A stretch of DNA of 64,000 bases, taken from assembly GCF_003867075.1 (NCBI RefSeq), contig NZ_CP032544.1, positions 1,482,001 to 1,546,000 of the forward strand. The letters run 5' to 3'. This document shows, piece after piece, positions 39,393-53,984 of the stretch (positions within the stretch are counted from its first letter, which is position 1; every line of letters starts with the position of its first letter). This stretch comes from Tenacibaculum mesophilum. Its GTDB lineage: Bacteria > Bacteroidota > Bacteroidia > Flavobacteriales > Flavobacteriaceae. The notes below the pieces were generated by a model. It searched no databases. It saw only the letters and a list, made by a program, of their open reading frames with translations, and was not told the DNA's origin. The position numbers and the translations under genes are program-made.

Positions 39393-40229
39393 CTAAATTT
39401 TAAAAGACAATACTGGTAACTTACTGTGATTGGCAATATCTTCTGAAATACTACCTTCAAAAAAGTGTGCTATTCCCTTTCTACCATGCGTAGCTACTAC
39501 TAAAACATCTGAGTTTATTTTGTCTGCATAATAGAACACTCCCTTTTCTACAAAATAATCAGAAATTATTTTTACTTTATGAATGTTTTCATCATAACTT
39601 TCATTTGTTTGATTAAAAAAATGCTTCATTCTTTCTTCTAACTCTTCGGTGCTTTTAAACTTAGACGTTGGTGTACTTACATATACCAGCTCCATATCTG
39701 CATTAAACTTCTTAAGAAACTCTTTCGCTTCCATATATGGTTGTACATCGTCATCAGAAAAGTCACAAGCAAACAGTATCTTTTCTATCTGTTTTACTAT
39801 CGGTTCCTCTTTTATTACTAATACAGGTACATGCGCATAACGGATTACCTTTTCTGTATTAGAACCAATAAACATTTCTTTTAAACCACTAGCTCCTTTA
39901 GATCCCATAACAATCAAATCTGCTCCTTCATTTCTTGCCAACTGGTCTATTTCGCTAAAGATTTTAAAATGCTTTATAATTGGAGTTACTTTTATACCCG
40001 ATAAATACTCTTTCTCTAAAAATTCTGCTAACTTTTTCTCAGACATTTGTAAATAAAACAACATTTCTTGTTGTAAATAACTTTCTGATCTACTTAAAAC
40101 AGCATTAGATAACTCAAGCATATGTACTACCAACACCTCAGCGTCTGACTTTTTTGCTAAAAAAGCTGCTGTTTGTAAAGCATTTTCAGAATATTTAGAA
40201 AAATCAACTGGGACTATAATTTTTTTCAT
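39393..40229 (-). CDS. Tandem universal stress protein (two UspA domains)
   Basis: 278 residues with two UspA domains (about 1-145 and 146-278). The first ends with the ATP-binding pattern GSKGASGLKEMFIGSNTEKV (G-x2-G-x9-G-S/N) and the second with THGRKGIAHFFEGSISEDI. Both domains look competent for nucleotide binding. Its promoter carries an FNR-like dyad in the same position as in the cco promoters, suggesting induction at low oxygen, as known for many Usp proteins. Confidence 0.92.
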   Translation of the reverse strand: MKKIIVPVDFSKYSENALQTAAFLAKKSDAEVLVVHMLELSNAVLSRSESYLQQEMLFYLQMSEKKLAEFLEKEYLSGIKVTPIIKHFKIFSEIDQLARNEGADLIVMGSKGASGLKEMFIGSNTEKVIRYAHVPVLVIKEEPIVKQIEKILFACDFSDDDVQPYMEAKEFLKKFNADMELVYVSTPTSKFKSTEELEERMKHFFNQTNESYDENIHKVKIISDYFVEKGVFYYADKINSDVLVVATHGRKGIAHFFEGSISEDIANHSKLPVLSFKI

Positions 40230-40260: not shown

Positions 40261-40268
40261 TAAAGTTA
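40261..40268 (-). promoter_or_regulatory. -7-like element TAACTTTA of the usp promoter
   Basis: TAnnTTTG with one mismatch (last base A). It is located 36.5 bp from the centre of the FNR-like dyad, exactly as for ccoS and ccoI. No -33 TTTG is present. Confidence 0.5.
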
Positions 40269-40290
40269 CCTAAATTTTATCAGTAAAGCT

Positions 40291-40304
40291 ATGATTTTTG
40301 TCAC
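40291..40304. promoter_or_regulatory. FNR-like dyad of the usp promoter
   Basis: TGAT-TTTT-GTCA core at 40292-40303, centre 40297.5. One base differs from a perfect dyad. It is placed between usp and the divergent gene at 40359. Confidence 0.6.
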
Positions 40305-40327
40305 TTTATAAACCACTATATATTCTA

Positions 40328-40335
40328 TACATTTG
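40328..40335 (+). promoter_or_regulatory. -7 element TACATTTG for the 40359 gene
   Basis: Exact TAnnTTTG match, 23 bp before the ATG. Its last base is 37.5 bp from the centre of the FNR-like dyad, one base more than the other sites. Confidence 0.45.
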
Positions 40336-40358
40336 CTTTCTTAAATTTTACATTTGTT

Positions 40359-41654
40359 ATGGATAAAAACTCTTCTAAATTTGTAGGCGTTGTTGTACGT
40401 GCCTTTATTTCTTTAATGGTCGTTTCTATTTTAGGTATTTTATTAAAGTTTTTTATTACCATACCCAATCGTATTTTTTTTAATAGATCTATAGCATATA
40501 CTAGTACACATTATTCATATAAACCAGGACAAAATGGATGGACTTTTGATTTTTTTGTATTAAACAATGATGGTTTATATGTAGCCTTACCCTTACTTCT
40601 AGTGATTTTTATTGCTTTAGTTTTTTACTTTGGAGTATTTTCTGCTATTGCAACATTTTTAAATTTTAAAGCACAAAACACGCAATTAGCCAAAAGAGAT
40701 TTTATTTTAACACTACTTGTTGTTAGCTTCTACTTTATGCCCAAATACATAAATATTGATTCTTTTTTAAACATCAATGAAAGAGGTGATTATGTACTTA
40801 AAGAGCGCATATATAATCCTAATAATGAAATTTGGGAAATAGGTGTTCAAAAAATAAGAGGTAACTATATTAAAGAACATAAAACCGTAAGCAATGACTC
40901 TTCATTTTTAGTTGTAAGAAAATTTAACACTAAAAAAATAGATACAGTTTTATTTGAAAAATTAGTTATTCCAGGCAATAATGTTTACGTTTTTAGTGCA
41001 AAAGATACCTTATGGTTATTTGAAACTTCTAATAATTATATAAAAGCTTTTAACATGGTTAACAGCAACATGGTTATAAAAAACAAAGAAGACTTAAACC
41101 GTATGATGCCCAAAAAACATCAAAAAAGTGGTATTGCCGAATTAAGTTATTCTCCTGCTCAAAAAAATAGTGTCTATGTAAAAACTAATTACGGTGAGGT
41201 GTTATACTTGCATACAGATGATAATTTAATTACTGATAGATACAAATACACTAACAGCACATACTATCTAAGACGCATAAACGAACATAGATATAAATTA
41301 TATGCAAAAAAGAAACAGCTAGCTACTACCTTACAAGAAACTATCTTTTTAAATGCTGAAATTATTTCTTATAGAAATAATGTTGTTGTTATTAGATACA
41401 AAGTCAACATAAAAAAAGAAACTCCTTATATCATTTCAGCATATGATACTATAACAGGAAATAAACTATGGGATTTTAATGAAGAAAACAATCCTTTTTT
41501 AAATAATGCTTATGGTAAAGTTACTGTGAATGCAACTTTTTTACCAAACAAAACAATTCTTAGTTTTTATGATGTTTTTACATTAAAAGGAAATGTAATA
41601 ATAGACAATCAAGGAAACTATATAAAACAGGAAATTAACATAACCAACTATTAA
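40359..41654 (+). CDS. Hypothetical membrane protein with C-terminal beta-rich domain
   Basis: 431 residues; no family recognised. Three hydrophobic segments lie at about 8-34, 73-96 and 112-127. The remaining 300 residues are soluble and beta-rich, with repeated strands around VPGNNVYVFSAKDTLWLF and ISAYDTITGNKLWDF. The latter resembles a PQQ-like or WD-type propeller blade (D-x-x-T-G-x-x-L-W). It is divergent from usp and shares the intergenic FNR-like dyad. It is convergent with the end of the cco operon with only 30 bp between. Confidence 0.6.
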   Translation: MDKNSSKFVGVVVRAFISLMVVSILGILLKFFITIPNRIFFNRSIAYTSTHYSYKPGQNGWTFDFFVLNNDGLYVALPLLLVIFIALVFYFGVFSAIATFLNFKAQNTQLAKRDFILTLLVVSFYFMPKYINIDSFLNINERGDYVLKERIYNPNNEIWEIGVQKIRGNYIKEHKTVSNDSSFLVVRKFNTKKIDTVLFEKLVIPGNNVYVFSAKDTLWLFETSNNYIKAFNMVNSNMVIKNKEDLNRMMPKKHQKSGIAELSYSPAQKNSVYVKTNYGEVLYLHTDDNLITDRYKYTNSTYYLRRINEHRYKLYAKKKQLATTLQETIFLNAEIISYRNNVVVIRYKVNIKKETPYIISAYDTITGNKLWDFNEENNPFLNNAYGKVTVNATFLPNKTILSFYDVFTLKGNVIIDNQGNYIKQEINITNY

Positions 41655-41684
41655 ACAAGTTTTTTACACTTTTCAAAATTATGA

Positions 41685-42383
41685 TTAATGGCAACCTTCA
41701 ACTGAATTATGAAGATCAGATACAGGAAGTGGAGAAACATAAGGTATTCCTAACCCTAGTCCTCTAAGAATAAACAATACTCCAATAATAATTACAACAT
41801 AAGGTATTGCTTGTTGAATTCTTTTTCGCACCAAACCATTTGCAAAATTCCCTACATAAACCACTGCCGTCATTAATGGTATTGTTCCTAATCCGAAGAG
41901 AAACATATATAGGCTTCCTGATAACATATTAGTTGTACTCAACGCTCCAAAAACTGCCATATAAACTAATCCACAAGGCAAAAATCCATTTAGAAAACCG
42001 ATGGTAAAAAAAGTATCATTTCCTTTTTTCTTTAATTCTTTCCCTAAAGAAGACTTTACTTTCATTACCAATTTATTTATTGGATTTGAAAAGTTATATT
42101 TCTGAAAAGTTTTAGGTATTAAAACTGCAAAAATCATTAATACACCAACAATAATTGATAGTTGTTGCTGAAACCCAAAAAAATAAAACCCTTTACCTAG
42201 TAAACCAAATAAAAAGCCTATTAAACTATAAGTAAATAAGCGTCCTAAATGATAACTAGTTATTTGAAAAAACTGTTTTACTTTATTCGTTCTGTCTACA
42301 GGTAACATAAAGGCTATAGGACCACACATGCCTATACAGTGAAAACTACCTAATAAACCAAATATGATTGCTGAAAGAAACAT
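41685..42383 (-). CDS. SafE/TauE-like membrane protein of the cco cluster
   Basis: 232 residues with about six membrane segments. The family signature GSFHCIGMCGPIAFMLP with its Cys/His pair is at the N-terminus, and GFLNGFLPCGLVYMA in the middle. The protein belongs to the sulfite exporter TauE/SafE-like group that is always found after ccoH in Bacteroidota. It likely helps copper delivery or oxidase assembly rather than sulfite export. Its ATG overlaps the ccoH stop (TAATG). Last gene of the operon. Confidence 0.85.
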   Translation of the reverse strand: MFLSAIIFGLLGSFHCIGMCGPIAFMLPVDRTNKVKQFFQITSYHLGRLFTYSLIGFLFGLLGKGFYFFGFQQQLSIIVGVLMIFAVLIPKTFQKYNFSNPINKLVMKVKSSLGKELKKKGNDTFFTIGFLNGFLPCGLVYMAVFGALSTTNMLSGSLYMFLFGLGTIPLMTAVVYVGNFANGLVRKRIQQAIPYVVIIIGVLFILRGLGLGIPYVSPLPVSDLHNSVEGCH

Positions 42384-42829
42384 TAAAACACTAACTCTTT
42401 CTGAAATAAATAATCTTTATTTTTGTAGTTCCAGGAAACTGTTATGTTCCAACGACCACCCAACAAACGTTTCTCAGGCACGAGCAAATATGTTTCGGAA
42501 ATCGAAATAGGTATTTCGAAATCCAATTGTTTATCAGATGGTCTGTATAGGAACACTTTTCCTTTTATATCTTTAGGGTTAAAGTCCGTTGGAAAATGGA
42601 CTTTAATTCCTTCAGTTACTTTTTCTATTTTAATATTCTTTTTTAATGCTTTCGCATTTTTAGTAGCATCTAATTTGTTCTGAAATTCTAATTCTTGTTG
42701 GTAGTATTTTTCAGTTACTAAATCGTGATTAAAGTTTTTACCTGTACTCATCGTAATTACGAAATACATAATAAAGCCTATAAATCCTATTATTGCTATT
42801 ACTATACCCGTGCCCCAGTTTAGTTTCAT
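42383..42829 (-). CDS. ccoH: CcoH/FixH cbb3 oxidase assembly protein
   Basis: 148 residues: one N-terminal membrane anchor (WGTGIVIAIIGFIGFIMYFV), then the periplasmic FixH domain with YYQQELEFQNKLDATKNA and the terminal GGRWNITVSWNYKNKDYLFQ. FixH helps to assemble the oxidase core complex. It lies 76 bp after ccoG and is coupled to the SafE-like gene. Confidence 0.9.
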   Translation of the reverse strand: MKLNWGTGIVIAIIGFIGFIMYFVITMSTGKNFNHDLVTEKYYQQELEFQNKLDATKNAKALKKNIKIEKVTEGIKVHFPTDFNPKDIKGKVFLYRPSDKQLDFEIPISISETYLLVPEKRLLGGRWNITVSWNYKNKDYLFQKELVF

Positions 42830-42905
42830 TTTAATTTGTTTTTAGTCTTTGGTTCTTAATCTTTATTCATACTTACTCCTAAAAGCTAATGAACTTTAGA
42901 CTGAT

Positions 42906-44327
42906 TTATCTATAACTTCTTGGTCCTAAAAAGTTGGTTGTAGTAGTTTCAATAAGTTTATCACCACTATACACTCCTATTTTTAGTTTTTCTTTTTCAT
43001 TTTTCATTTCAGACTGATGTAACTCTATAAATAAGGTTCCTTCTGCTAATCCTTGTTTAGGTACTTCAAAATCTTGATGTGTTACTGTTTCTATTTTTCC
43101 TTTATGAGATAACAATTTATAACTCACATTATCTATTTGTTTTGTTGTTTTATTTACTACTTTAAAAGTGTAAATATTACTAATAACTCCGTTTTCTTTG
43201 TGTTGATACAACTGCCCTGGCAATCGTAAAATTGTTGCTTCTACATCGTTCCTCAAAAACAGCATCCCTATTAAAATTCCTATTAAAATAAACAAAACTG
43301 CTGAGTACCCTTTCATTCTTGCAGTGAATTTAAAAGGTGCTTTCTTTACAATATTTTCTTCACTTGCATAACGAATAAGTCCTTTTGGCAATCCTACCTT
43401 TTCCATTATATGGTCACATTCATCAATACAAGCTGTACAGTTTACACATTCTAATTGCGTACCGTTTCGAATATCTATTCCTGTAGGACATACATGCACA
43501 CATTGAAAACAATCTATACAATCTCCTTTTCCAGACGCTGCTCTATCTTCTTTTTTATTAAACTTTCCTCTCCCTGCTTTTCCTTCTCCTCTTACATGAT
43601 CGTAAGCCACATTAATAGTTTTATTATCTAACAGCACTCCTTGCAGTCTACCATAAGGGCAAGCTATAATGCAAACTTGCTCTCTAAACCATGCAAAAAT
43701 AAAATAGAAAACTCCTGTAAAAATTAGCAATGATATTAAAGTACTAATATGGTCTAATGGGTTACCTGTTATGTAACTTATTAATTTATCACTTCCTATT
43801 AAATATGCTAAGAAAACGTTTGCTATAATAAAAGAGATGATAAAAAAGACTATCCATTTTAAGACTCTTTTTCTTATTTTTTCTGCATTCCAAGCTTGTT
43901 TTGCTAAACGAATTTGTTTTCCTCTATCTCCCTCTATTAAATATTCAATTTTCCTAAAAACCATTTCTAAGAAAATAGTTTGCGGACAAATCCAACCGCA
44001 AAAAATTCGACCAAAAACAACAGTAAATAGAATGATAAACACCACTCCTATTATCATTGAAATCACCATTAAATGAAAGTCTTGTGGCCAAAAAGGAAAT
44101 CCGAAAATGTTAAATTTACGTTCTAAAACATTAAATAGTAAAAACTGATTTCCGTTAATTTTAATAAACGGTGCTAGTAATAAAAACGCTAATAAAAAAT
44201 AGCTTATATAGCTTCGATACTTATAAAACTTTCCGCTTGGTTTTTTTGGAAACACCCAAGCCCTTTTTCCTTCATCATTTATAGTACCAATACTATCTCT
44301 GAATTGTTCGTTTTTGGGTGTTTCCAT
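42906..44327 (-). CDS. ccoG: CcoG/RdxA ferredoxin-like cbb3 assembly factor
   Basis: 473 residues from the ATG at 44327; a TTG two codons upstream is less likely. About five membrane segments. The NosR/NapH-type CGWICPQTIF motif and the double [4Fe-4S] motif CIDCFQCVHVCPTG plus CVNCTACIDECD are present. The C-terminal part is an Ig-like periplasmic domain. CcoG reduces Cu(II) for the CuB centre of cbb3 oxidase. Confidence 0.93.
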   Translation of the reverse strand: METPKNEQFRDSIGTINDEGKRAWVFPKKPSGKFYKYRSYISYFLLAFLLLAPFIKINGNQFLLFNVLERKFNIFGFPFWPQDFHLMVISMIIGVVFIILFTVVFGRIFCGWICPQTIFLEMVFRKIEYLIEGDRGKQIRLAKQAWNAEKIRKRVLKWIVFFIISFIIANVFLAYLIGSDKLISYITGNPLDHISTLISLLIFTGVFYFIFAWFREQVCIIACPYGRLQGVLLDNKTINVAYDHVRGEGKAGRGKFNKKEDRAASGKGDCIDCFQCVHVCPTGIDIRNGTQLECVNCTACIDECDHIMEKVGLPKGLIRYASEENIVKKAPFKFTARMKGYSAVLFILIGILIGMLFLRNDVEATILRLPGQLYQHKENGVISNIYTFKVVNKTTKQIDNVSYKLLSHKGKIETVTHQDFEVPKQGLAEGTLFIELHQSEMKNEKEKLKIGVYSGDKLIETTTTNFLGPRSYR

Positions 44328-44363
44328 AATCAACTATTAAAAACTAATTTGTAACTTCTATTT

Positions 44364-45287
44364 TTATTGAATACTATCTTTTACTTGCTCTTCTACTGGT
44401 TCTGCAACAGTTGATGCTTGACCTTCTTCTTTATATAACTCTCCTTGAGGTTCTTTTGGTTTTGCTGGTGTAGTTCCTTGTAAAGAAATTATATAACTCG
44501 CAACCTTTTGAATGTCTTTAGGTTTTAATGTTTTGTTCCAAGCAACCATACCTTTACCATCTCTACCTCCATTAGCAACTGTATTAAAAATATTCTTCAT
44601 TCCTCCTCCTAAAATCCAATACTCATCTGTCAGATTAGGTCCTATACCTCCTCCTCCATCAGCCATATGACATGCTGCACAGTTTAAATTAAATACAGCT
44701 TTACCTCTACTTAAATCGGCATCAGAAGTTAATACTGTAGCAGTTTCTGCATCAATAATAGCTTCCTTTGAGTTTGATTTAAATGCTGCTAATTCTCTTT
44801 TAGCTTCTGCTACTGCTTGAGCATACTCCATTTCTTGGTTATCTGCTCCTAATACATGATATCTTACTAAATATACTGCTGCAAAAATGATTGTTGCATA
44901 GAACATATATAGCCACCATGGTGGTAAGTTATTGTCTAACTCTTTAATTCCATCATAATTATGATCAAGAATAATTTCATCTTCTTGCTCAATTGCTTTG
45001 GCCTCTGTCCATTTACTAATAAGTTTTTTAGCCCAAGCCCATTTATCAACTTCTTCTGGTTTAATTCCATCTTTTTCCATTTGAAGTTGCTCTGCTCTTT
45101 GCTGAGCCACAATATTTAAAACTTCTTTTAAAACTACAACAGTTATAAGCCCTACAATCGCTATCCAAACTAATGGGTGTTCATATAGACTAAATGGATT
45201 TTGATATGATTTAATTGCAGTAGCAATAGCAAAAAAGGTTACTGCAACAAAAATGATATATACTATAGACTGAAAATATTTTTTCAT
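44364..45287 (-). CDS. ccoP: cbb3 oxidase subunit CcoP, mono-haem type
   Basis: 307 residues with two membrane segments: an N-terminal hairpin (SIVYIIFVAVTFFAIATAI and VWIAIVGLITVVVLKEVL), then LPPWWLYMFYATIIFAAVYLVRY in the middle. Only one haem c motif is present (Cys203-x-x-Cys206-His207 in NLNCAACHMADGGGG). Proteobacterial CcoP has two. The single-haem version with an extra N-terminal region is the Bacteroidota form. The C-terminal tail is acidic. Confidence 0.93.
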   Translation of the reverse strand: MKKYFQSIVYIIFVAVTFFAIATAIKSYQNPFSLYEHPLVWIAIVGLITVVVLKEVLNIVAQQRAEQLQMEKDGIKPEEVDKWAWAKKLISKWTEAKAIEQEDEIILDHNYDGIKELDNNLPPWWLYMFYATIIFAAVYLVRYHVLGADNQEMEYAQAVAEAKRELAAFKSNSKEAIIDAETATVLTSDADLSRGKAVFNLNCAACHMADGGGGIGPNLTDEYWILGGGMKNIFNTVANGGRDGKGMVAWNKTLKPKDIQKVASYIISLQGTTPAKPKEPQGELYKEEGQASTVAEPVEEQVKDSIQ

Positions 45288-45301
45288 CTTTTTAAATTTT
45301 A

Positions 45302-45469
45302 CTAATTATCTAAAGGCAATTCACTTACCCTACTTATATATTCTTTCTTGGCTGTAAATACCCACCAAAACAACACTACAAAAAATGTAAAGAATATGGT
45401 TAGTGAAATAATTGGGTATATTTCAATACCTGCAATAGTTTCCATATGATTTTTTACAAACTTTAACAT
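45302..45469 (-). CDS. ccoQ: CcoQ/FixQ-like small subunit
   Basis: 55 residues with one membrane segment (YPIISLTIFFTFFVVLFWWVF) followed by AKKEYISRVSELPL, the form of CcoQ. It sits between ccoNO (5 bp) and ccoP (14 bp), the usual position for this gene. Confidence 0.88.
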   Translation of the reverse strand: MLKFVKNHMETIAGIEIYPIISLTIFFTFFVVLFWWVFTAKKEYISRVSELPLDN

Positions 45470-45474
45470 AATTT

Positions 45475-47676
45475 CTAGTTTTTAGCGCTTAATTGGTCTT
45501 GAACATCTTTAATCTTAATATCGGTACCTAATCGTTGTAAATAAGCGATTAAGGCTACGATTTCCCTATCTTTCATTTCTATGAAAGTTTGTCCATTTTC
45601 TTGAGCATACTTTTTATCTGCTTCATAGTTTGTTGCAAAGTCTGGATCAGCATACAAGTTCTCTTGAATTTTAGCTCCTTGCTCTTCCATGCTTGTTTGT
45701 GCATTTGCAATATCTTCTTCCGTATAAGGAACTCCTAAGCTAACCATTGCTTTCATTTTGCTTTCGGTATCACTCTTATCTAACTTATTTCTTACTAACC
45801 ATTGGTATGCTGGCATAATAGATCCTGGAGATGTACTTTGTGGATCATACATATGATTTAAATGCCAACTATCGTTATACTTTCCTCCAACTCTTAATAA
45901 ATCTGGACCTGTACGTTTAGAACCCCATAAAAACGGATGGTCGTATACAAACTCTCCTGCTTTTGCAAATTCTCCATAACGTTCTACTTCCGATCTAAAT
46001 GGACGTACCATTTGTGAGTGACATCCCACACATCCTTCACGGATATAAATATCTCTACCTTCTAATTCTAGAGGAGTATAAGGTTGTACGCTTGTTATTG
46101 TTGGAATATTAGATTTTACTAATAATGTTGGAATAATTTGAACAACTCCTCCTATTAAAATCGCCACTGTAGCATATATAGTTAATTTTACAGGCCTTCT
46201 TTCTAACCAAGTATGCCAACCTTCTTTAGAAGTTCTGTATTTAGATACTTTTGTTAATGCCGCTGCTTCTGCTAGTTCATCTGTTACTCCACTTCCTGAT
46301 CTTACCGTTTTAACAATGTTATATAACATTACAAATGCTCCAAGGATAAATAAGCTTCCTCCAATAGCACGCATCCAATACATTGGAATAATTTCGTTTA
46401 CTGTTTCTAAGAAGTTACCATAAGTTAACGTTCCATCTGGATTAAACTGTTTCCACATTGAAGCTTGTACAAATCCTGCAACATACATTGGTAGCGCATA
46501 CATAATAATACCTAAAGTTCCAATCCAGAAATGGAAGTTAGCCAATGCTGTAGAATATAATTTTGTTTTGAACATTCTTGGTACTAACCAGTATAACATA
46601 CCGAAAGTTAAGAATCCGTTCCAAGCTAAGGCTCCTACGTGTACGTGAGCGATAATCCAATCACTAAAGTGCGCAATTGCATTTACATTCTTTAATGATA
46701 ACATTGGTCCCTCAAAAGTTGCCATACCATAACCTGTAATTGCAACTACCATGAATTTTAATACTGGATCTACTCTTACTTTATCCCAAGCTCCACGAAG
46801 AGTTAACAATCCGTTAATCATACCTCCCCAAGATGGTGCAATTAACATTACTGAGAACGCAACTCCTAAATTTTGAGCCCAATCTGGTAATGATGTATAT
46901 AATAAGTGGTGAGGCCCTGCCCAGATGTAGATAAAAATTAATGACCAAAAGTGCACAATAGATAATCTATATGAATATACTGGACGATTAGCCGCTTTAG
47001 GAACAAAGTAATACATTAATCCTAAGAACGGAGTCGTTAAGAAGAATGCCACAGCGTTGTGTCCGTACCACCATTGTACCAGTGCATCTTGAACCCCTGC
47101 ATACACTGAGTAACTTTTCATGAAACTTACTGGCAACTCTAAACTATTAAAAATATGTAATACTGCTACGGTTACAAAAGTTCCTAGGTAAAACCAAATT
47201 GCTACATATAAATGACGTTGTCTTCTTTGTAAGATTGTCCAAATCATGTTAGCACCAAAAGCCACCCAAACTAGGGCTATGGCAATATCGATTGGCCATT
47301 CTAATTCAGCGTATTCTTTTGAAGTGGTATACCCTAGCGGAAGTGTTATGGCTGCTGCAACAATTATTAACTGCCATCCCCAAAAGTTAAAGTTACTTAA
47401 AAAATCACTCGCCATACGGGCTTTCAGTAATCGCTGTAGTGAGTAGTAAACTCCTGCAAAAATGGCATTTCCAACGAATGCAAAAATTACTGCGTTCGTA
47501 TGTAATGGTCTTAAACGTCCAAAACTTAACCACGAAATACCGTCAGTTAAATTTGGGAATAAAAACATAAAAGCCAATAACAATCCCACTGAAAAACCTA
47601 CTATTCCCCATAGTAAGGTTGCGTAGATGAATTTTTTTACGATCTTATTATCGTAATAAAATTGTTGCATTTCCAT
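45475..47676 (-). CDS. ccoNO: Fused cbb3 cytochrome c oxidase CcoN-CcoO
   Basis: 733 residues in one chain. Residues 1 to about 480 are CcoN, with twelve helices and the haem b / CuB histidines (for example LRPLHTNAVIFAFVGN, QWWYGHNAVAFF, WAGPHHLLYTSLP, IAHVHVGALAWNG). Residues about 500-733 are CcoO, with a helix and one haem c site (Cys549-x-x-Cys552-His553 in REGCVGCHSQMVRP). The fusion is the usual Bacteroidota arrangement. It reduces O2 to water with high affinity. Start is the ATG at 47676, or the ATG two codons later. Confidence 0.96.
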   Translation of the reverse strand: MEMQQFYYDNKIVKKFIYATLLWGIVGFSVGLLLAFMFLFPNLTDGISWLSFGRLRPLHTNAVIFAFVGNAIFAGVYYSLQRLLKARMASDFLSNFNFWGWQLIIVAAAITLPLGYTTSKEYAELEWPIDIAIALVWVAFGANMIWTILQRRQRHLYVAIWFYLGTFVTVAVLHIFNSLELPVSFMKSYSVYAGVQDALVQWWYGHNAVAFFLTTPFLGLMYYFVPKAANRPVYSYRLSIVHFWSLIFIYIWAGPHHLLYTSLPDWAQNLGVAFSVMLIAPSWGGMINGLLTLRGAWDKVRVDPVLKFMVVAITGYGMATFEGPMLSLKNVNAIAHFSDWIIAHVHVGALAWNGFLTFGMLYWLVPRMFKTKLYSTALANFHFWIGTLGIIMYALPMYVAGFVQASMWKQFNPDGTLTYGNFLETVNEIIPMYWMRAIGGSLFILGAFVMLYNIVKTVRSGSGVTDELAEAAALTKVSKYRTSKEGWHTWLERRPVKLTIYATVAILIGGVVQIIPTLLVKSNIPTITSVQPYTPLELEGRDIYIREGCVGCHSQMVRPFRSEVERYGEFAKAGEFVYDHPFLWGSKRTGPDLLRVGGKYNDSWHLNHMYDPQSTSPGSIMPAYQWLVRNKLDKSDTESKMKAMVSLGVPYTEEDIANAQTSMEEQGAKIQENLYADPDFATNYEADKKYAQENGQTFIEMKDREIVALIAYLQRLGTDIKIKDVQDQLSAKN

Positions 47677-47709
47677 AATCTATTTGAATTTAATATCTAT
47701 TGTTAATTG

Positions 47710-47874
47710 TTAGTTCTTTGTTTCCTCTTTTACCAATTCATCATCAAACAACATGCGAACCGACGGCGTGTACGAATCATCGTACTGCCCTTTTTTTACT
47801 GAAACAATAAATGCTATAAAGAAAATAATAGCCACTAAAATACTTAGTGATAATAGTAAGTAAATAACGCTCAT
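47710..47874 (-). CDS. ccoS: CcoS cbb3 oxidase maturation protein
   Basis: 54 residues, one membrane segment (IYLLLSLSILVAIIFFIAFIVSV), then the typical KKGQYDDSYTPSVRMLFDDE. It is the first gene of the oxidase operon, 33 bp upstream of ccoNO. CcoS is needed for cofactor insertion into CcoN. Confidence 0.92.
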   Translation of the reverse strand: MSVIYLLLSLSILVAIIFFIAFIVSVKKGQYDDSYTPSVRMLFDDELVKEETKN

Positions 47875-47880
47875 ATCTTG

Positions 47881-47892
47881 CCTGATAATTAT
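47881..47892 (+). promoter_or_regulatory. Second FNR half-site in the ccoS leader
   Basis: CCTGATAATTAT, a 12-nt copy of one side of the ccoI/fnr dyad (minus strand 53258-53247). The other half-site is broken (ATAG instead of ATCA). It lies between the predicted transcription start and the ccoS ATG. Confidence 0.35.
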
Positions 47893-47896
47893 AGTT

Positions 47897-47904
47897 CAAA
47901 GATA
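47897..47904 (-). promoter_or_regulatory. -7 element TATCTTTG of the ccoS operon promoter
   Basis: Exact TAnnTTTG match on the minus strand, 22 bp before the ATG. No TTTG is present at -33, as expected for an activator-dependent promoter. Confidence 0.65.
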
Positions 47905-47926
47905 CTTGTGAAGATTCTCTTAAAAT

Positions 47927-47940
47927 ATGACTTTTGTCAT
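47927..47940. promoter_or_regulatory. FNR-like dyad of the cco operon promoter
   Basis: Perfect dyad ATGAC-TTTT-GTCAT, centre 47933.5, which is 36.5 bp from the last base of the -7 element. This places it near -41.5, the class II activator position. Confidence 0.7.
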
Positions 47941-47958
47941 GTTTCAAGTTTTTTACAC

Positions 47959-47988
47959 AAAAAAACTCGAAGATTTTTTCTTCGAGTT
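47959..47988 (-). terminator. Terminator after hemN
   Basis: 9-bp stem AACTCGAAG / CTTCGAGTT (47964-47972 with 47980-47988) followed on the minus strand by a T run. Confidence 0.8.
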
Positions 47989-47997
47989 ATTTGTTGT

Positions 47998-49359
47998 TTA
48001 AATTGTCATTGAAAACAGTTGGGTTTCAGGTTGTTTTTTGTGTAACTTTTTATCAAATGCCATACAAATATTACGCACATAGGGTCTTGCCTTTTCTGGA
48101 ACGGTTAACTTACTCCCTTTTATAGAAACCAAACCATCAGCCATCATTTCTTCTAATTTTTCTATATGTGTTTCTATATTTTCAATCTGTAACTGCTCTT
48201 CTTCCCACGAAGTGGAAAAGTGACACATGATATTTAAAATATGTTTTCTAATTTTTAAATCTTCTTCAGATAATATATGCCCTCTAAACACAGGAATTTC
48301 TCCTTCGTTTACAACGCTTTCATACTCTTTTACCGTTTTTACATTTTGTGCAAACCCGTACCAAGAATCAGATATTGACGACATTCCTAAACCAATCATT
48401 AATTGTGTTTTATTGGCGGTATACCCCATAAAATTACGATGCAACGTTTTCTTTTTTGTGGCTTCATACAAGCTATCAGTAGGTAATGCAAAATGATCCA
48501 TTCCTATTTCTATGTAACCCATTTCTGCAAACAATTTCTTTCCTATTTCATACAACTCTCGCTTTTCTTCATTTTTTGGTAGGTCATTTTCATTAAATCC
48601 TCGCTGTCCAACTCCTTTTACCCACGGAACATGCGCATAACTATAAAACGAAATTCTATCAGGTTCTAGCTCTTTTGTTTTATTAATAGTATGAATTACA
48701 TTTTCCTTGGTTTGAAACGGAAGTCCAAATACCAAATCGTGACTGATAGATGTATATCCTATTTCTTTTGCCCAATTATGTACGTTTTGAACATTTTCAA
48801 AAGGCTGAATTCGATGAATTGCTTCTTGTACTTTTGGATTGTAATCTTGCACTCCAAAACTTACTCGTGTAAATCCTAAGTCATACAAAGTTTGTAGGTG
48901 TTCTTTTGTGGTGTTGTTTGGATGCCCTTCAAAACTAAATTCATGATTGGGATGTTTTTCTGCGTTCATAAAAATCCCATCAATTAATCTTTTTAATTGT
49001 TTTTCTGAAAAGAATGTTGGAGTCCCTCCTCCTAAATGGATTTCTTTTATTATAGGTGTTTCATCTACCAAATTAACATATAGCTGCCATTCTTTTAAAA
49101 CAGTTTCTATATACGGATCTTCCATTTCATGACGTTTTGTTATATGTTTATGGCATGCACAAAACGTACATAAACTCTCGCAAAATGGTAAGTGAATATA
49201 TAAGCTAATTCCTTCTGATGAGTTACTTTCGATAAACGATTGTTTAAAAGTTTTAATCCATTTTTCTTTTGAGAAGCTATCATTCTCCCAATACGGAACG
49301 GTTGGATAACTTGTATATCTTGGTCCTGGAATATTATATTTTTGAATAAGTGAATTCAT
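47998..49359 (-). CDS. hemN: Oxygen-independent coproporphyrinogen III oxidase
   Basis: 453 residues. The radical SAM cluster motif CxxxCxxC is in LPFCESLCTFCACHKH, preceded by PGPRYTSYPTVPYW, the HemN N-terminal signature. EIHLGGGTPTF and FEGHPNNTTKEHL follow. The enzyme makes protoporphyrinogen IX without O2, so it feeds haem synthesis for the oxidase when oxygen is scarce. It is the last gene of the likely ccoI-deoC-deoD-hemN operon. Confidence 0.96.
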   Translation of the reverse strand: MNSLIQKYNIPGPRYTSYPTVPYWENDSFSKEKWIKTFKQSFIESNSSEGISLYIHLPFCESLCTFCACHKHITKRHEMEDPYIETVLKEWQLYVNLVDETPIIKEIHLGGGTPTFFSEKQLKRLIDGIFMNAEKHPNHEFSFEGHPNNTTKEHLQTLYDLGFTRVSFGVQDYNPKVQEAIHRIQPFENVQNVHNWAKEIGYTSISHDLVFGLPFQTKENVIHTINKTKELEPDRISFYSYAHVPWVKGVGQRGFNENDLPKNEEKRELYEIGKKLFAEMGYIEIGMDHFALPTDSLYEATKKKTLHRNFMGYTANKTQLMIGLGMSSISDSWYGFAQNVKTVKEYESVVNEGEIPVFRGHILSEEDLKIRKHILNIMCHFSTSWEEEQLQIENIETHIEKLEEMMADGLVSIKGSKLTVPEKARPYVRNICMAFDKKLHKKQPETQLFSMTI

Positions 49360-49412
49360 ATTCTATGCTACTGTTTTGTTTCATTCTTCATCAAAACCTC
49401 TTAAAATGACGA

Positions 49413-50111
49413 TTAAGCCAATTCTAAAGCGATTTCAATCATTTCTTTAAAGGTTTGTTCTCTTTCTTCAGCAGTTGTTCTTTCTCCAGTAACTAAACTA
49501 TCTGAAATGGTTAAAATTGACAGTGCATTTACTTTGTGTTTTGCTGCAACAGTATATAATCCATTTGTTTCCATCTCAACACAAAGCACCCCATAATCTG
49601 CCCACTTTTTATAGCTTTCAAATTCATCAGCATAAAACTCATCTGAACTTAAAATATTTCCTGATTTTAGCGGAATTCCTTTGTTTTTTGCTACATCAAC
49701 TGCTTTTTGGAATAGTTCAAAACTTGCTGTCGGCGCATAGTCGGCTCCGTTGAAACGTATGGTATTTAATCCAGAATTTGTCGATGCTGCCATGGCTATA
49801 ACAATATCTCTAATTTTTACATCTTCTTGATAAGAACCAGCTGAACCTACTCTTATTAAATTTTTAACTCCATACTCTGTAATTAATTCATGACAATAAA
49901 TTAATGTGGAAGGAATTCCCATTCCAGTTCCTTGAACAGATATTCGCTTTCTTTGATACGTCCCTGTAAAACCTAGCATTCCACGAACATCATTGTAACA
50001 CGTTGGATTTTCTAAAAATGTTTCTGCTATCCATTTTGCGCGCATAGGATCACCTGGTAATAAAACAGTTTCTGCTATTTCTCCTTTCTTTGCTTCTATA
50101 TGTACGCTCAT
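49413..50111 (-). CDS. deoD: Purine nucleoside phosphorylase, DeoD type
   Basis: 232 residues, the normal size for the hexameric trimer-of-dimers type. [33 protein letters not shown] and the [11 protein letters not shown] block with the substrate Glu and Met are visible; the catalytic Asp lies in [10 protein letters not shown]. It splits purine (deoxy)nucleosides with phosphate to base and (deoxy)ribose 1-phosphate. It is 39 bp after deoC. Confidence 0.94.
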
Positions 50112-50150
50112 TCTTTGTTCTTTTAGATTTTGAGTTATTAAAAACTTATT

Positions 50151-50816
50151 TTAATACTGATTCTTATCTGAAATACCACTCGTTACTAATGAAACACCTG
50201 ACGAGGTTCCTAAACGAGTTACTCCCATTTCTATGTACCTCTTAGCTGTTTCAATATCTCTAATACCACCAGCTGCTTTTATCTGTGCTTTTCCATCTAC
50301 AACACTATCCATTATCGCTACATCTTTAAAAGTAGCCCCTCCAGTACCAAAACCTGTAGATGTTTTTACAAAATCAGCCCCGGCTTCTACCGCTAATTGA
50401 CTTGCTATTTTTATTTGTTCCTTAGATAGATAACAGTTTTCAAAAATTACTTTTAATATATTTTCTCCTATTTCTTCTTTAATCAACCGAATTTCTTTTT
50501 CTACATAATTTTCTTCACCATCTAACAACTTACCTATATTGATAACCATATCTATTTCTGAAGCTCCATTTTTTATACATTCTTTGGCTTCAAAAATTTT
50601 AGCTTTGGTAGTCATTGCTCCTAAAGGAAAACCTACTACAGCTGCTATTTTTACATCCGAACCTTTTAACTCTTTGGCTACCAATTCTACATAACATCCA
50701 TTTACACAAACTGCATAAAAGTTATATTTTTTGGCCTCATTACACAGCTTTACTATATCTGCTTTAGTTGCTGTAGCTTTTAATAAAGTATGATCTATAT
50801 ATTTATTAATCTGCAT
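50151..50816 (-). CDS. deoC: Deoxyribose-phosphate aldolase
   Basis: 221 residues. The Schiff-base Lys lies in ADFVKTSTGFGTGGAT and the second catalytic Lys in AQIKAAGGIRD. It begins with KYIDHTLLKATATKADI. The enzyme converts deoxyribose 5-phosphate to acetaldehyde and glyceraldehyde 3-phosphate. Only 4 bp separate it from the upstream ccoI, so the two are in one transcript. Confidence 0.95.
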   Translation of the reverse strand: MQINKYIDHTLLKATATKADIVKLCNEAKKYNFYAVCVNGCYVELVAKELKGSDVKIAAVVGFPLGAMTTKAKIFEAKECIKNGASEIDMVINIGKLLDGEENYVEKEIRLIKEEIGENILKVIFENCYLSKEQIKIASQLAVEAGADFVKTSTGFGTGGATFKDVAIMDSVVDGKAQIKAAGGIRDIETAKRYIEMGVTRLGTSSGVSLVTSGISDKNQY

Positions 50817-50820
50817 CTTT

Positions 50821-53193
50821 TTATTTTATTTTTCTACCTAAAATATTGGTAGCTATTGTTGTAAATACTACTACACTAATTGAACTCAACGGCATTAAAA
50901 TAGCTGCTATTACTGGCATCAACTGCCCCGTTACCGCAAAATAAAGTCCAACAACATTATACATTAAAGATAATAAAAAACAATACTTAATAATTTTTAT
51001 CGCTTTTTGCGATGCTTTTATATAGTTTCCTATTTCACTAAACTTTGTGGCATCTAAAATAGCATCGCAAGCAGGTGAAAACACATTGATATTTTCCGAT
51101 AAAGCTATTCCTACATTGCTTTGAGCTAACGCTCCTGCATCATTTAATCCGTCACCAATCATCAATACACTTTTGTTTTTTTCTTGTAGTTCCTCTACAT
51201 AATGTAGCTTATCTTGCGGTTTTTGATTGAATAAAAATGTTGTTTCTTTAGGTAATAACTCTTCTAAAAACTTCTTTTCCCCTTCATTATCTCCAGAAAC
51301 TACAGATAATTCATATTTTTTATTTAAGCTTGAAAACAGGTTTTCAACTCCTTTTCTATAAGCATTTTTAAACACAAACTTTCCTTTATACTTATCGTTA
51401 ACACTAATATGAACAGAAGTATCAAAATTTAATCGTTCTTCTGCATTTTTTACAAAAGAAGACGAACCTATTTTTAATCTTGTTTGTTGATAACTTGTCT
51501 CAATTCCCTTTCCTACATATTCTTGGTAATTATCAACTGGTAACATTTCTTCTTCTAAAGAAGCATATAACATTCTACTTAGTGGATGATTTGAGGCTCT
51601 TAATGAGCTTTTTAATATCGCTTTTTGGAGTTTATTTAGATCTTCACCTTTATATGTTATCGTATTTTCTTTATTGGTGGTAAGCGTACCTGTTTTATCA
51701 AAAATAACTGAGTTTATAGCTGCTAATTGTTCTACTACTGTAGCATTCTTTAAATAAAATTTCTTTCTCCCAAAGATTCGTAGGATATTCCCTAAAGTAA
51801 ACGGTGCTGCTAAGGCTATGGCACAAGGACATGCAATAATTAGTACTGACGTAAATACGTTTAATGCTACACTTGAATCATAGTATAACCAAAATGCTGT
51901 AGACAAAAACGCTATTGACAATACGATGATGGTAAAATTCTTACTGATTTTATCAGTTAACGTTTTAAACGATGAATTTTTATCTTTTTGAAATACATCA
52001 TTACTCCACAACTGTGTTAAATAGCTTTGTGAAACCGAAGCTAGTACCTCCATCTCTATACTTCCTGACAGTTGCTTTCCTCCTGCAAATAATTTATCTC
52101 CTGACTTTTTATTTACAGGAACAGCCTCACCTGTAACAAAGCTGTAATCTATTTTCGCTTCTCCATTAATTAAAATTCCATCAACAGGAATTAATTCTTG
52201 GTTTCTAATTAATAATCTGTCTCCTTTATTGACATCATAGATTTGCGTGTTTTCTTCTTTTTTATCCGTAGTTATTCTTGTTACTGCAATTGGGAAGTAC
52301 GATTTGTAATCGCGTTCGAATGACAAGAAATTATAAGTTTTTTGTTGAAAAAACTTCCCTAGTAATAAGAAGAACACTAGCCCTGTTAAACTATCAAAAA
52401 AGCCTGTCCCTAAATCCAACATAATCTCTGCTGTACTACGTACAAATAGCACTAAAATTCCAAGAGCAATAGGAACATCAATGTTTAAAATTTTAGAGCG
52501 AATTCCTTTGTATGCTGAAATAAAATAATCAACTCCAGCATAAAACACTACAGGTAACGAAAATATAAACATTAACCAACGGAAGATTCCTTTGTATTGC
52601 TCTAACCAATATTCTGATACTTCAAAATATTCCGGGAATGATAAAAACATAACATTTCCAAAAGCAAAACCTGCTATTCCTAGTTTATAAATTAAACTAC
52701 GGTCTACCTTCTTTTTCCCTACCTCATAATCTTCAAGACTTATGTAAGGTTCATAACCAATAGAACTTAATAGTAATACTATTTCTTTAAGTGATGTTTT
52801 TTCGGAATTGTAAGTAATTCGTACTGTTTTCTTTGGGAAATTAACTTGAGATGAAGATACAAACTCTTGTAGTTTGTGTAAGTTTTCTAATACCCAAATA
52901 CATGAACTACAATGTATATGTGGAATGTATAAATTTACCACTTGTACATTGCCATCGTTAAACTCTAATAGTTTATCTACAATGGATTCATTATCCAAGA
53001 AATCATATTTTCCTTGTATCTCTTCAGGTATTGCTCCTGGGTTGTTTTGAAAATCGTAATAACAAGTTAAATCGTTCTCTGAAAAAATTTCATAAACCGT
53101 TTTGCATCCATTACAACAGAAAAATTTATCTTCTTTTGTAATTGTTTTTGTGTCGCACTCGTTACCACAATGAAAACATGTTGTGCTTTCCAT
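50821..53193 (-). CDS. ccoI: CcoI/FixI-type copper-transporting P1B ATPase
   Basis: 790 residues from the ATG at 53193. A longer frame would start at a TTG at 53235, which lies in the regulatory region. The N-terminus has a CxxC zinc-ribbon-like domain (CFHCGNE, CCNGCKTVYE), then a heavy-metal domain with HIHCSSCIWVLENL. The transmembrane metal site is IACPCAIALAAPF. DKTGTLT, SNHPLSR and GDGLNDAGAL are the P-type catalytic motifs. It supplies copper for the oxidase CuB. First gene of the ccoI-deoC-deoD-hemN cluster and divergent from the Fnr gene. Confidence 0.95.
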   Translation of the reverse strand: MESTTCFHCGNECDTKTITKEDKFFCCNGCKTVYEIFSENDLTCYYDFQNNPGAIPEEIQGKYDFLDNESIVDKLLEFNDGNVQVVNLYIPHIHCSSCIWVLENLHKLQEFVSSSQVNFPKKTVRITYNSEKTSLKEIVLLLSSIGYEPYISLEDYEVGKKKVDRSLIYKLGIAGFAFGNVMFLSFPEYFEVSEYWLEQYKGIFRWLMFIFSLPVVFYAGVDYFISAYKGIRSKILNIDVPIALGILVLFVRSTAEIMLDLGTGFFDSLTGLVFFLLLGKFFQQKTYNFLSFERDYKSYFPIAVTRITTDKKEENTQIYDVNKGDRLLIRNQELIPVDGILINGEAKIDYSFVTGEAVPVNKKSGDKLFAGGKQLSGSIEMEVLASVSQSYLTQLWSNDVFQKDKNSSFKTLTDKISKNFTIIVLSIAFLSTAFWLYYDSSVALNVFTSVLIIACPCAIALAAPFTLGNILRIFGRKKFYLKNATVVEQLAAINSVIFDKTGTLTTNKENTITYKGEDLNKLQKAILKSSLRASNHPLSRMLYASLEEEMLPVDNYQEYVGKGIETSYQQTRLKIGSSSFVKNAEERLNFDTSVHISVNDKYKGKFVFKNAYRKGVENLFSSLNKKYELSVVSGDNEGEKKFLEELLPKETTFLFNQKPQDKLHYVEELQEKNKSVLMIGDGLNDAGALAQSNVGIALSENINVFSPACDAILDATKFSEIGNYIKASQKAIKIIKYCFLLSLMYNVVGLYFAVTGQLMPVIAAILMPLSSISVVVFTTIATNILGRKIK

Positions 53194-53213
53194 ATTTACT
53201 CTTTTGCCTAGTA

Positions 53214-53221
53214 CAAATGTC
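53214..53221 (-). promoter_or_regulatory. -7-like element GACATTTG of the ccoI promoter
   Basis: TAnnTTTG with one mismatch (first base G). The last base is 36.5 bp from the centre of the FNR-like dyad. No -33 TTTG is present. Confidence 0.5.
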
Positions 53222-53244
53222 GGATAACATCTCAAATTAAAACA

Positions 53245-53256
53245 TGATAATTATCA
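53245..53256. promoter_or_regulatory. FNR-like dyad between ccoI and the Fnr gene
   Basis: Perfect palindrome TGATAATTATCA (core TGAT-N4-ATCA, identical to the FNR core), centre 53250.5. The fnr -7 element ends only 22.5 bp away, the ccoI one 36.5 bp. Confidence 0.75.
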
Positions 53257-53265
53257 GGTTTTCCG

Positions 53266-53273
53266 TATATTTG
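53266..53273 (+). promoter_or_regulatory. -7 element TATATTTG of the Fnr-type regulator gene
   Basis: Exact TAnnTTTG match 25 bp before the ATG at 53298. The FNR-like dyad overlaps the -33 region. Confidence 0.6.
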
Positions 53274-53297: not shown

Positions 53298-53984
53298 ATG
53301 AGCAAGTGTGAGCAATGTATCATCAGAGAATTTAATTCTTTAAAGGCTTTAACAAAAGATGAATTGATAAGAATAACAGGATGTAAAACGTCTAAAAAAA
53401 TAAAAAAAGGAGAAGTTCTCTTTGATGAAGGCGAATACATAAATGGTGTTTTTTGTGTTAAAGACGGTGTTTGTAAAGTGTCTAAAATGAGTGATAATGG
53501 TAGAGACCAAATTATTCATTTAATAAAAAAAGGAGATATTTTAGGAGAGCGAAGTTTGATTAACAATGAGGCTTCCAATTTAAAAGCTATTGCCGTTAAT
53601 GATATGGAAGTATGTTTTATTCCTAAAGAAGAAATTATTAGAGATTTAGAAAACAATTCTAACTTTTCTATGGACATTTTGAAAAAAATGGCCAATTCTT
53701 TAAAGAAAGCAGATGATATTATAGTAGATATGGCTCAAAAAACCGTAAAACAACGTTTAGCTGCTACTCTTTTACTTTTAGACTCTAAGTTTGATAAGAA
53801 CGAAAATGGCTCTATAAATATTAATTTATCTCGAGAAGATATGGCTAATATTATTGGAACAGCAACGGAAAGTGCTATTCGTTTACTTTCAGAGTTTAAA
53901 AAGAAAAAACTAATTGATTTAAAAGGTAAAGAAATCTATATAACTGATATAAAAGCTTTAAAAGAGCTTTCGGAAGGTTTTTAA
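53298..53984 (+). CDS. Crp/Fnr-family regulator, FNR-like oxygen sensor
   Basis: 228 residues from the ATG at 53298; an ATG at 53244 also opens the frame but lies inside the operator. Residues 30-130 form the cNMP-like beta-roll and 150-215 the winged helix. Cys4, Cys7 (CEQC), Cys29 and Cys106 are candidate [4Fe-4S] ligands; Cys106 aligns with E. coli FNR Cys122 (MVCEIP versus EVCFIP). The recognition helix TATESAIRLLSEF keeps the Glu and Arg that read TGA half-sites. It is divergent from ccoI and probably controls that operon, the cco operon and usp. Confidence 0.9.
   Translation: MSKCEQCIIREFNSLKALTKDELIRITGCKTSKKIKKGEVLFDEGEYINGVFCVKDGVCKVSKMSDNGRDQIIHLIKKGDILGERSLINNEASNLKAIAVNDMEVCFIPKEEIIRDLENNSNFSMDILKKMANSLKKADDIIVDMAQKTVKQRLAATLLLLDSKFDKNENGSININLSREDMANIIGTATESAIRLLSEFKKKKLIDLKGKEIYITDIKALKELSEGF

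Follow-up and report, generated by a model that had tools for sequence, protein, structure and literature searches.

A predicted FNR-type class II promoter design at low-oxygen respiration genes of Tenacibaculum mesophilum and other Flavobacteriaceae

Class II activation by FNR, as described for Escherichia coli and Aliivibrio fischeri, works from an operator centred at -41.5, and FNR targets include OmpW and genes of the high-affinity oxidase type; in alphaproteobacteria, FixK or the FixLJ-FixK cascade controls ccoNOQP and ccoGHIS. We compared these systems with the ccoS, ccoI and usp promoters found in a stretch of 64,000 nt of Tenacibaculum mesophilum (assembly GCF_003867075.1, contig NZ_CP032544.1, positions 1,482,001-1,546,000; hereafter the window), which also holds an fnr-type gene. 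The resemblance to FNR lies in a CRP/FNR-family protein, a palindrome with a 4-nt centre, a fixed predicted position at -41.5 and the control of respiration with OmpW and oxidase-type targets, and that to FixK in the same cbb3 and FixGHIS targets and in a receiver domain that is part of the system in some relatives. Unlike that of FNR, the Flavobacteriaceae design uses a TAnnTTTG promoter instead of -35/-10 boxes, its operator TGAYN4RTCA lacks the outer TT/AA, the third cysteine for the iron-sulfur (Fe-S) cluster is displaced or replaced, and the recognition helix reads ATESAIR where FNR has VETISR. In contrast to FixLJ-FixK, 53 of 120 family genomes encode the receiver and the CRP protein as one fused chain, a type of protein not found in T. 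mesophilum.

Within the same phylum and superfamily, HcpR, PgRsp and CrpPg of Porphyromonas gingivalis and MalR/Cur of Bacteroides thetaiotaomicron were compared by their descriptions. In the available portions of those reports they respond to heme, nitric oxide (NO) or carbon signals, and the text there describes neither a cbb3 regulon nor a class II operator at constant distance from the -7 box (PMC1274295, PMC12040651, PMC6955866, PMC8510549); Flavobacteriales homologs are assigned to carbon sensing in the portion available of PMC8510549. The transcription start map of Flavobacterium psychrophilum, a member of the same family, places TAnnTTTG at -12 to -5 and, in the part available, reports strong induction of cbb3 under oxygen limitation (PMC9723704); neither Fnr nor Crp appears in its main text. 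The promoter design presented here did not turn up among the listed results of searches of the open-access literature, subscription journals lying mostly outside them.

The three promoters share one build on the minus strand, a 12-bp dyad, 23 nt and a -7 octamer, reading TGACAAAAGTCA-N23-TATCTTTG at ccoS, TGATAATTATCA-N23-GACATTTG at ccoI and TGACAAAAATCA-N23-TAACTTTA at usp (Table 1). In each, 36.5 bp separate the dyad centre from the last base of the octamer. These coordinates, sequences and the equal spacing had been given in an original prediction made from the sequence alone, and re-reading the minus strand reproduced them exactly. The ccoS octamer is an exact match to TAnnTTTG, whereas those of ccoI (G for the first T) and usp (final A) carry one mismatch each, and all three promoters appear to fit the Bacteroidota sigma-A type with this -7 box. 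Bacteroidota promoters have TTTG as their -33 consensus. Direct reading bore out its predicted absence from all three promoters, where TGTT, TATT and TAGC occupy the position directly after the dyad, and TTTG is likewise missing at -33 from the ccoI and ccoS consensus across relatives. Assuming starts 5 nt past the octamer, the predicted 5' leaders to the ATG measure 16 nt (ccoI), 18 nt (ccoS) and 27 nt (usp).

In the register of F. psychrophilum, as far as that source is available, the last base of the octamer stands at -5, and the distance of 36.5 bp therefore puts the dyad centre at -41.5. Given this register, an operator near -41.5 at a fixed distance, combined with the loss of the upstream core element, would correspond to a class II layout, and the originally proposed class II activation near -41.5 is supported by the register together with the conserved, genome-wide spacing described below. 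We propose that the dyads would be operators of the adjacent CRP/FNR-family protein. At low oxygen, a dimer would bind TGAY-N4-RTCA centred at -41.5, directly against the would-be -33 box, and recruit the Bacteroidota sigma-A RNA polymerase, which would then need only the -7 box TAnnTTTG. Such activation would turn on the cbb3 genes from ccoS, the ccoI pump with its downstream genes, usp and some dozen further promoters, while the dyad between ccoI and fnr, predicted at -27.5 on the fnr side, would let the regulator limit its own synthesis. Oxygen would be sensed by an Fe-S cluster held by a non-canonical cysteine set. Comparison establishes the dyads, their fixed spacing, their enrichment in the genome and the family, their conservation and their association with the regulator or a receiver-CRP substitute; from these we infer binding by Fnr, activation, autorepression and Fe-S oxygen sensing. 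Fnr-type class II activation of a low-oxygen regulon, with autorepression and Fe-S oxygen sensing, is in our judgement likely to be the best explanation.

The dyad by itself would fit a chance alignment with -7 boxes in AT-rich DNA, since bare TGAYN4RTCA is not enriched genome-wide (207 matches versus 191 for the reversed pattern), and it was rejected as evidence on its own. A gapped pattern with N25-30, which does not include the three sites, gave 11 matches versus 10 controls. Spacing controls refute the chance explanation. Within the window, 4 of 12 dyad orientations carry NANNTTTR at spacer 23, namely the three promoters and one site within a coding gene (binomial P 1.4e-6, or 8e-5 corrected for 61 spacings; 0.005 after the same correction for the three alone). 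In the whole genome, strict TAnnTTTG at spacers 10-40 (31 spacings) gave 29 matches, 8 of them at 23, versus 18 for the reversed pattern over all 31, a peak (corrected Poisson P 2.4e-5) that owes nothing to the spacing chosen in the original prediction. The claim that equal spacing was unlikely by chance was thus upheld both in the window and genome-wide. With a looser octamer the contrast within this genome is weaker, only about threefold: spacers 21-25 yielded 28 matches (reversed control, 13), 16 at exactly 23 versus 12 over the other four spacings together, and spacers 25-29 yielded 26, or 5.2 per spacing, versus the 16, with 0 reversed, at 23. Of the 16 spacer-23 matches, one lies inside a coding gene and 15 precede an open reading frame (ORF), at predicted leader lengths of 12-146 nt; at the neighbouring spacings, 2 of 12 precede an ORF (P 5e-5). 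Together with the conservation of the dyad at ccoI and ccoS, these controls make chance alignment a practically negligible explanation.

Family-wide conservation was assessed in 120 Flavobacteriaceae genomes, one per genus, and at individual loci in 30 genera (T. mesophilum included) for ccoI-fnr and usp and in 80 loci of named relatives. The 120 genomes hold 2212 spacer-23 matches versus 224 reversed and 348.4 per off-spacing (25-29); relatives with an Fnr ortholog have a median of 19 per genome, where about 2-3 would be expected by chance. In the 80 loci, nAnnTTTG octamers number 147 at spacer 23, 43 at 9, 17 at 59 and 0-5 everywhere else, spacings 22 and 24 holding 1 and 2. This rigidity bears on the alternative that the dyads are repressor sites, the protein blocking the promoters in air and leaving at low oxygen. 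The same dyad does stand in a repressing position before fnr, which would favour that alternative, whereas a repressor would tolerate the shifts that are nearly absent at 22 and 24, and rigid spacing at -41.5 without a -33 box is the layout of class II activation; we consider repression very improbable. The spacer-59 peak was rejected as a promoter class: 16 of its 17 members are one conserved stretch reading as rpoC antisense, the seventeenth sits some 4 kb beyond it, and all 17 are in conserved coding DNA, with none among the promoters described here.

The ccoI-fnr interval holds the dyad in 26 of 30 genera, always with a ccoI octamer at spacer 23, and in 76 of the 80 loci, 73 of them with the strict 23-nt octamer. 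At ccoS the site is present in all 72 loci that hold the gene, the other 8 of the 80 stretches holding neither ccoS nor ccoN in this homology-based count. Across the ccoI and ccoS promoters, information content lies at 1.8-2.0 bits in TGA, TCA and, within the -7 box, in A and TTTG, while the mid-spacer stays mostly below 0.6 bits with a few columns near 1; because their spacer sequences are not conserved, the spacer-23 sites differ from the spacer-59 stretch. The consensus across relatives is about AAAACATGAYAAATRTCATATTTT-N17-nAnnTTTG; in its -7 box, ccoI promoters hardly vary at A and TTTG, and ccoS promoters at TA and TTTG. Among the named relatives, Tenacibaculum discolor has a 97% identical Fnr.

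When the three promoters were compared in relatives, as the original prediction had suggested, conservation held for ccoI and ccoS, and usp proved the least conserved. Counting the best usp relatives among the matches listed, a site lies within 300 nt in 6 of 30 genera and within 1.5 kb in 20. The usp gene directly follows hemN in 21 of 30 genera, and in 11 of these the site, about 1.4 kb from usp, stands just before hemN. The 10 usp loci without a match are all hemN-linked; nine of the stretches end too near the hemN start to allow a judgement, and one (L205) lacks a strict match. A conserved single-gene usp target was rejected on these counts, and hemN and usp appear to belong to the regulon in many genera, through one promoter or two. 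The usp dyad also faces a divergent 431-aa gene at 40359 that has no Pfam match and whose octamer TACATTTG stands 24 nt from the dyad, not 23 (window 40292-40335).

Beyond the family (395 genomes), 8 genomes of the same order hold 75 spacer-23 matches versus 6 controls and 49 of the same class hold 464 versus 58; in other classes, read by eye, most genomes have 0-6 and a few 7-13 (G410 with 13, G308 with 12). Two genomes of a single genus in another class of the phylum (G387, G422) hold 33 and 40 matches versus 2 and 3 controls.

Read toward fnr, the ccoI-fnr dyad is followed by TAnnTTTR after 9 nt in 24 of 26 genera, with one more at 10 nt, and after 9 nt in 59 of 76 loci, or 67 when spacings of 8-10 are counted. 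An octamer at this distance places the dyad centre at -27.5, overlapping the -33 to -7 interval of the fnr promoter. Judged from this position, a single dyad probably serves ccoI as an activator site and fnr as a repressor site, an autorepression. Two Polaribacter loci (L108, L125) show, at about 9950, a dyad that also has an nAnnTTTA octamer 23 nt away on the fnr side; there fnr itself might be activated, or the match might be due to chance.

The proposed regulator was called probably Fnr-type in the original prediction. Its Pfam matches (PF00027 and PF13545) confirm a cyclic nucleotide monophosphate (cNMP)-binding fold and a Crp-type helix-turn-helix (HTH), as expected of the CRP/FNR family, whereas a canonical FNR would have the third Fe-S cysteine missing here, and FNR-like describes it better. 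The closest solved sequence is P. gingivalis 2gau (E 2.5e-34), followed by A. fischeri FNR (E about 1e-26, residues 3-223), and the predicted model (mean pLDDT 75) matches 5e44 with a TM of 0.71 at rank 12. Fnr orthologs are clearly separate from paralogs in the 120 genomes, 71 of which, T. mesophilum included, have one at E 3e-50 or better. At E 1e-50, the 53 genomes mentioned above carry a receiver-CRP fusion, its REC (receiver) domain confirmed by Pfam in the two proteins examined (L171, L172); none was found at that threshold in T. mesophilum, whose Fnr has no REC domain. The helices of eight receiver-CRPs read ATESLIR (4), ATETLIR, ATETAIR, ASETLIR and APESLIR.

Genomes were called enriched at 9 or more sites, a cut chosen after seeing the counts, and 91 of the 120 genera qualified. 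Enrichment was found in all 26 genomes with both proteins, in 38 of 45 with Fnr only, in 26 of 27 with receiver-CRP only and in 1 of 22 with neither; with either protein present, the count is 90 of 98 versus 1 of 22 (Fisher 6e-16, not corrected for descent). A link to the Fnr ortholog alone was rejected when 29 genomes with only weaker homologs equally had the pattern; 27 of these carry receiver-CRP fusions, and the other two (G010 with 1 match, G051 with 7) have no clear enrichment. The genomes with neither protein include more small ones than expected, but seven (G010, G023, G039, G073, G079, G086, G087) measure 2.6-3.5 Mb and have 0-3 sites. The pattern thus appears to track the neighbouring Fnr-type gene or a close receiver-CRP substitute. 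Two small genomes (G020, G043) have an Fnr relative with an altered N-terminus (L185, L184), in which C29 aligns to a gap and C4 and C7 are kept, and hold 3 and 2 sites.

It could be argued instead that a different CRP paralog binds the dyads and that fnr is only a neighbour. The T. mesophilum genome encodes 16 cNMP-domain proteins, one of which, encoded at genome 1407239, adjoins a spacer-23 site and resembles Fnr in its VETVIR helix, and 27 family genomes without an Fnr ortholog seem to use a receiver-CRP fusion for this pattern. Yet among the 16 only Fnr has a helix, ATESAIR, resembling that of the receiver-CRP group (e.g. ATESLIR), in a comparison where L160 was represented by a 132-aa piece without its HTH; moreover, the dyad stands in the fnr promoter itself, and the genome has no receiver-CRP at E 1e-50. 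We therefore rate the paralog explanation as improbable. In most of the other 15 cNMP proteins the chain stops just past a short PESLSRIRK-type helix, apparently without the usual wing.

The cysteines were counted in 115 Fnr sequences, the T. mesophilum protein being counted twice and a distant homolog (L186) being left out. All of them have C4, C7, C53 and C106, 111 have C29 and 110 have C59; in the recognition helix, E191 and R195 are each kept in 114. Three of these residues, C4, C7 and C106, have aligned cysteine counterparts in A. fischeri FNR, which we take to be its Fe-S cluster ligands. C53 or C29 may replace the missing third canonical cysteine, and an Fe-S cluster with either as fourth ligand is the simplest reading of the set, through which the regulator would sense oxygen. 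The same operators, geometry and protein could answer a signal other than oxygen via Fe-S, such as NO, heme, cysteine redox or a nucleotide; the absence of the canonical third cysteine, targets that include a nitrite reductase and a globin, and, in the descriptions available, the heme-binding nature of the Bacteroidota relatives HcpR and PgRsp would be in keeping with this. Such a signal nevertheless seems unlikely to us in view of the four invariant cysteines, the alignment of three of them with FNR, the place of high-affinity oxidase and copper-pump genes at the core of the target set, and the induction of cbb3 by oxygen limitation reported in the available part of the F. psychrophilum study (PMC9723704).

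The 15 spacer-23 promoters of the T. mesophilum genome precede, on the oxidase side, ccoS with ccoNO, ccoP, ccoG and fixH, as well as ccoI and usp. Others stand before genes for a copper nitrite reductase (CuNIR; TIGR02376 above cut-off), a group III truncated haemoglobin (PDB 2ig3, E 8e-13), OmpW, class II fumarase (FumC), two PAS proteins, a CBS protein, a cold-shock protein, a thioredoxin-reductase-like flavoprotein, a metallo-hydrolase-like protein and two small proteins, one of which was searched and had no Pfam match. The list reads as a set for low-oxygen and nitrogen-oxide respiration with several members of unclear role. The original prediction had expected a compact oxygen regulon and suggested a genome-wide scan for it; the link to respiration genes stood, with function judged from the gene list only, and the compactness did not. 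The two small PAS proteins (Pfam PAS_3; genome 768750 and 2583954) have spacer-23 sites of their own and presumably recall the PAS part of aerotaxis receptors. A strong site, TGATAAAAATCATGTTTTT (genome 2446469), precedes a 44-aa membrane-like ORF beginning MVQLMNIPMVSW, the nearest ORF of at least 30 aa. Three other spacer-23 promoters (genome 1407152, 1851963 and 3246597) sit beside genes encoding additional proteins of the CRP family, one of these being divergent to the gene of the group III haemoglobin. In the window itself, ccoN and ccoO are joined in a single 733-aa protein (45475-47676; PRK14485).

Table 1. Promoter elements and genes in the window (positions count from its first nucleotide)
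Feature	Position	Strand	Basis
Dyad TGACAAAAATCA of usp	40292..40303	.	direct read, pattern scan
-7 element TAACTTTA of usp, 23 nt from dyad	40261..40268	-	direct read
usp, universal stress protein, two Usp stretches	39393..40229, ATG 40229	-	domain match
DsbD_2-type membrane protein, end of oxidase run	41685..42383	-	Pfam
ccoH/fixH	42383..42829	-	Pfam FixH
ccoG	42906..44333	-	domain match
ccoP	44364..45287	-	domain match
ccoN-ccoO fusion gene	45475..47676	-	PRK14485
ccoS/fixS, 54 aa, first gene of oxidase run	47710..47874, ATG 47874	-	Pfam FixS, E 1.5e-19
-7 element TATCTTTG of ccoS, 23 nt from dyad	47897..47904	-	direct read
Dyad TGACAAAAGTCA of ccoS	47928..47939	.	direct read, pattern scan
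Terminator-like hairpin ACTCGAAGA/TCTTCGAGT and T run, between hemN and ccoS promoter	47959..47987	-	by eye
hemN, oxygen-independent coproporphyrinogen III oxidase, within ccoI run	47998..49359	-	domain match
deoD, purine-nucleoside phosphorylase	49413..50111	-	domain match
deoC, second gene of ccoI run	50151..50816	-	domain match
ccoI/fixI, copper P-type ATPase	50821..53193, ATG 53193	-	domain match
-7 element GACATTTG of ccoI, 23 nt from dyad, predicted centre -41.5	53214..53221	-	direct read
Dyad TGATAATTATCA between ccoI and fnr, faces both genes	53245..53256	.	direct read and relatives
-7 element TATATTTG of fnr, 9 nt from dyad, predicted centre -27.5	53266..53273	+	relatives
fnr-type regulator, 228 aa, cNMP-binding and Crp HTH, Cys 4, 7, 29, 53, 59, 106	53298..53984	+	Pfam

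Several observations weigh against Fnr-type class II activation as proposed here. In the protein, the CX2CX5C motif of FNR is without its third cysteine, position 13 being Asn in 109 of the 115 sequences and Cys in none, and Ile stands in all 115 where the FNR recognition helix has Ser; in the operator, the core TGAY-N4-RTCA is flanked by AAAACA...TATTTT in place of the outer TT...AA of FNR. The spacer-59 peak shows that shared descent alone can build a peak in coding DNA, and the species compared are non-independent samples. The dyad before fnr is absent from 4 of 30 genera and 4 of 80 loci, three more of the 80 have it without a strict ccoI octamer, and only 6 of 30 usp genes have a site within 300 nt. 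One genome (G048; assembly 82% complete) has 32 matches, although neither an Fnr (E 1e-20) nor a receiver-CRP (E 1e-50) was found there and its best homolog reaches E 5.9e-13; conversely, 7 genomes with an Fnr ortholog and 1 with only a receiver-CRP have 8 or fewer matches, and 15 other cNMP-domain proteins exist in T. mesophilum. No binding, transcription-start or oxygen experiment for this species appears in the literature read.

A wider generalization, which we offer tentatively and regard as rather doubtful, is that a single rigid design operates throughout the family and more weakly throughout the class. A CRP/FNR dimer at -41.5 would replace the -33 contact of the polymerase, an FNR-type sensor would use the unusual Fe-S cysteines 4, 7, 53 and 106, receiver-CRPs would take over the same operators, making direct oxygen sensing and two-component input interchangeable, and one dyad would activate ccoI and repress fnr. 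Class II activation is already known; as far as sequence can tell, the new elements are the Bacteroidota setting, the non-canonical regulator, the apparently exchangeable receiver-CRP and the dual-facing operator. Activator-dependent initiation is poorly mapped in the Bacteroidota, whose promoters differ from the textbook type, and for 91 of 120 genera the pattern supplies a set of some 20 predicted operators in each genome, their geometry being open to testing through single-base changes. The regulator offers a concrete candidate for low-oxygen sensing in the Flavobacteriaceae, and its cysteine pattern makes an unusual Fe-S site directly testable. Across this family, in marine and freshwater members, the layout most likely turns on low-oxygen respiration.

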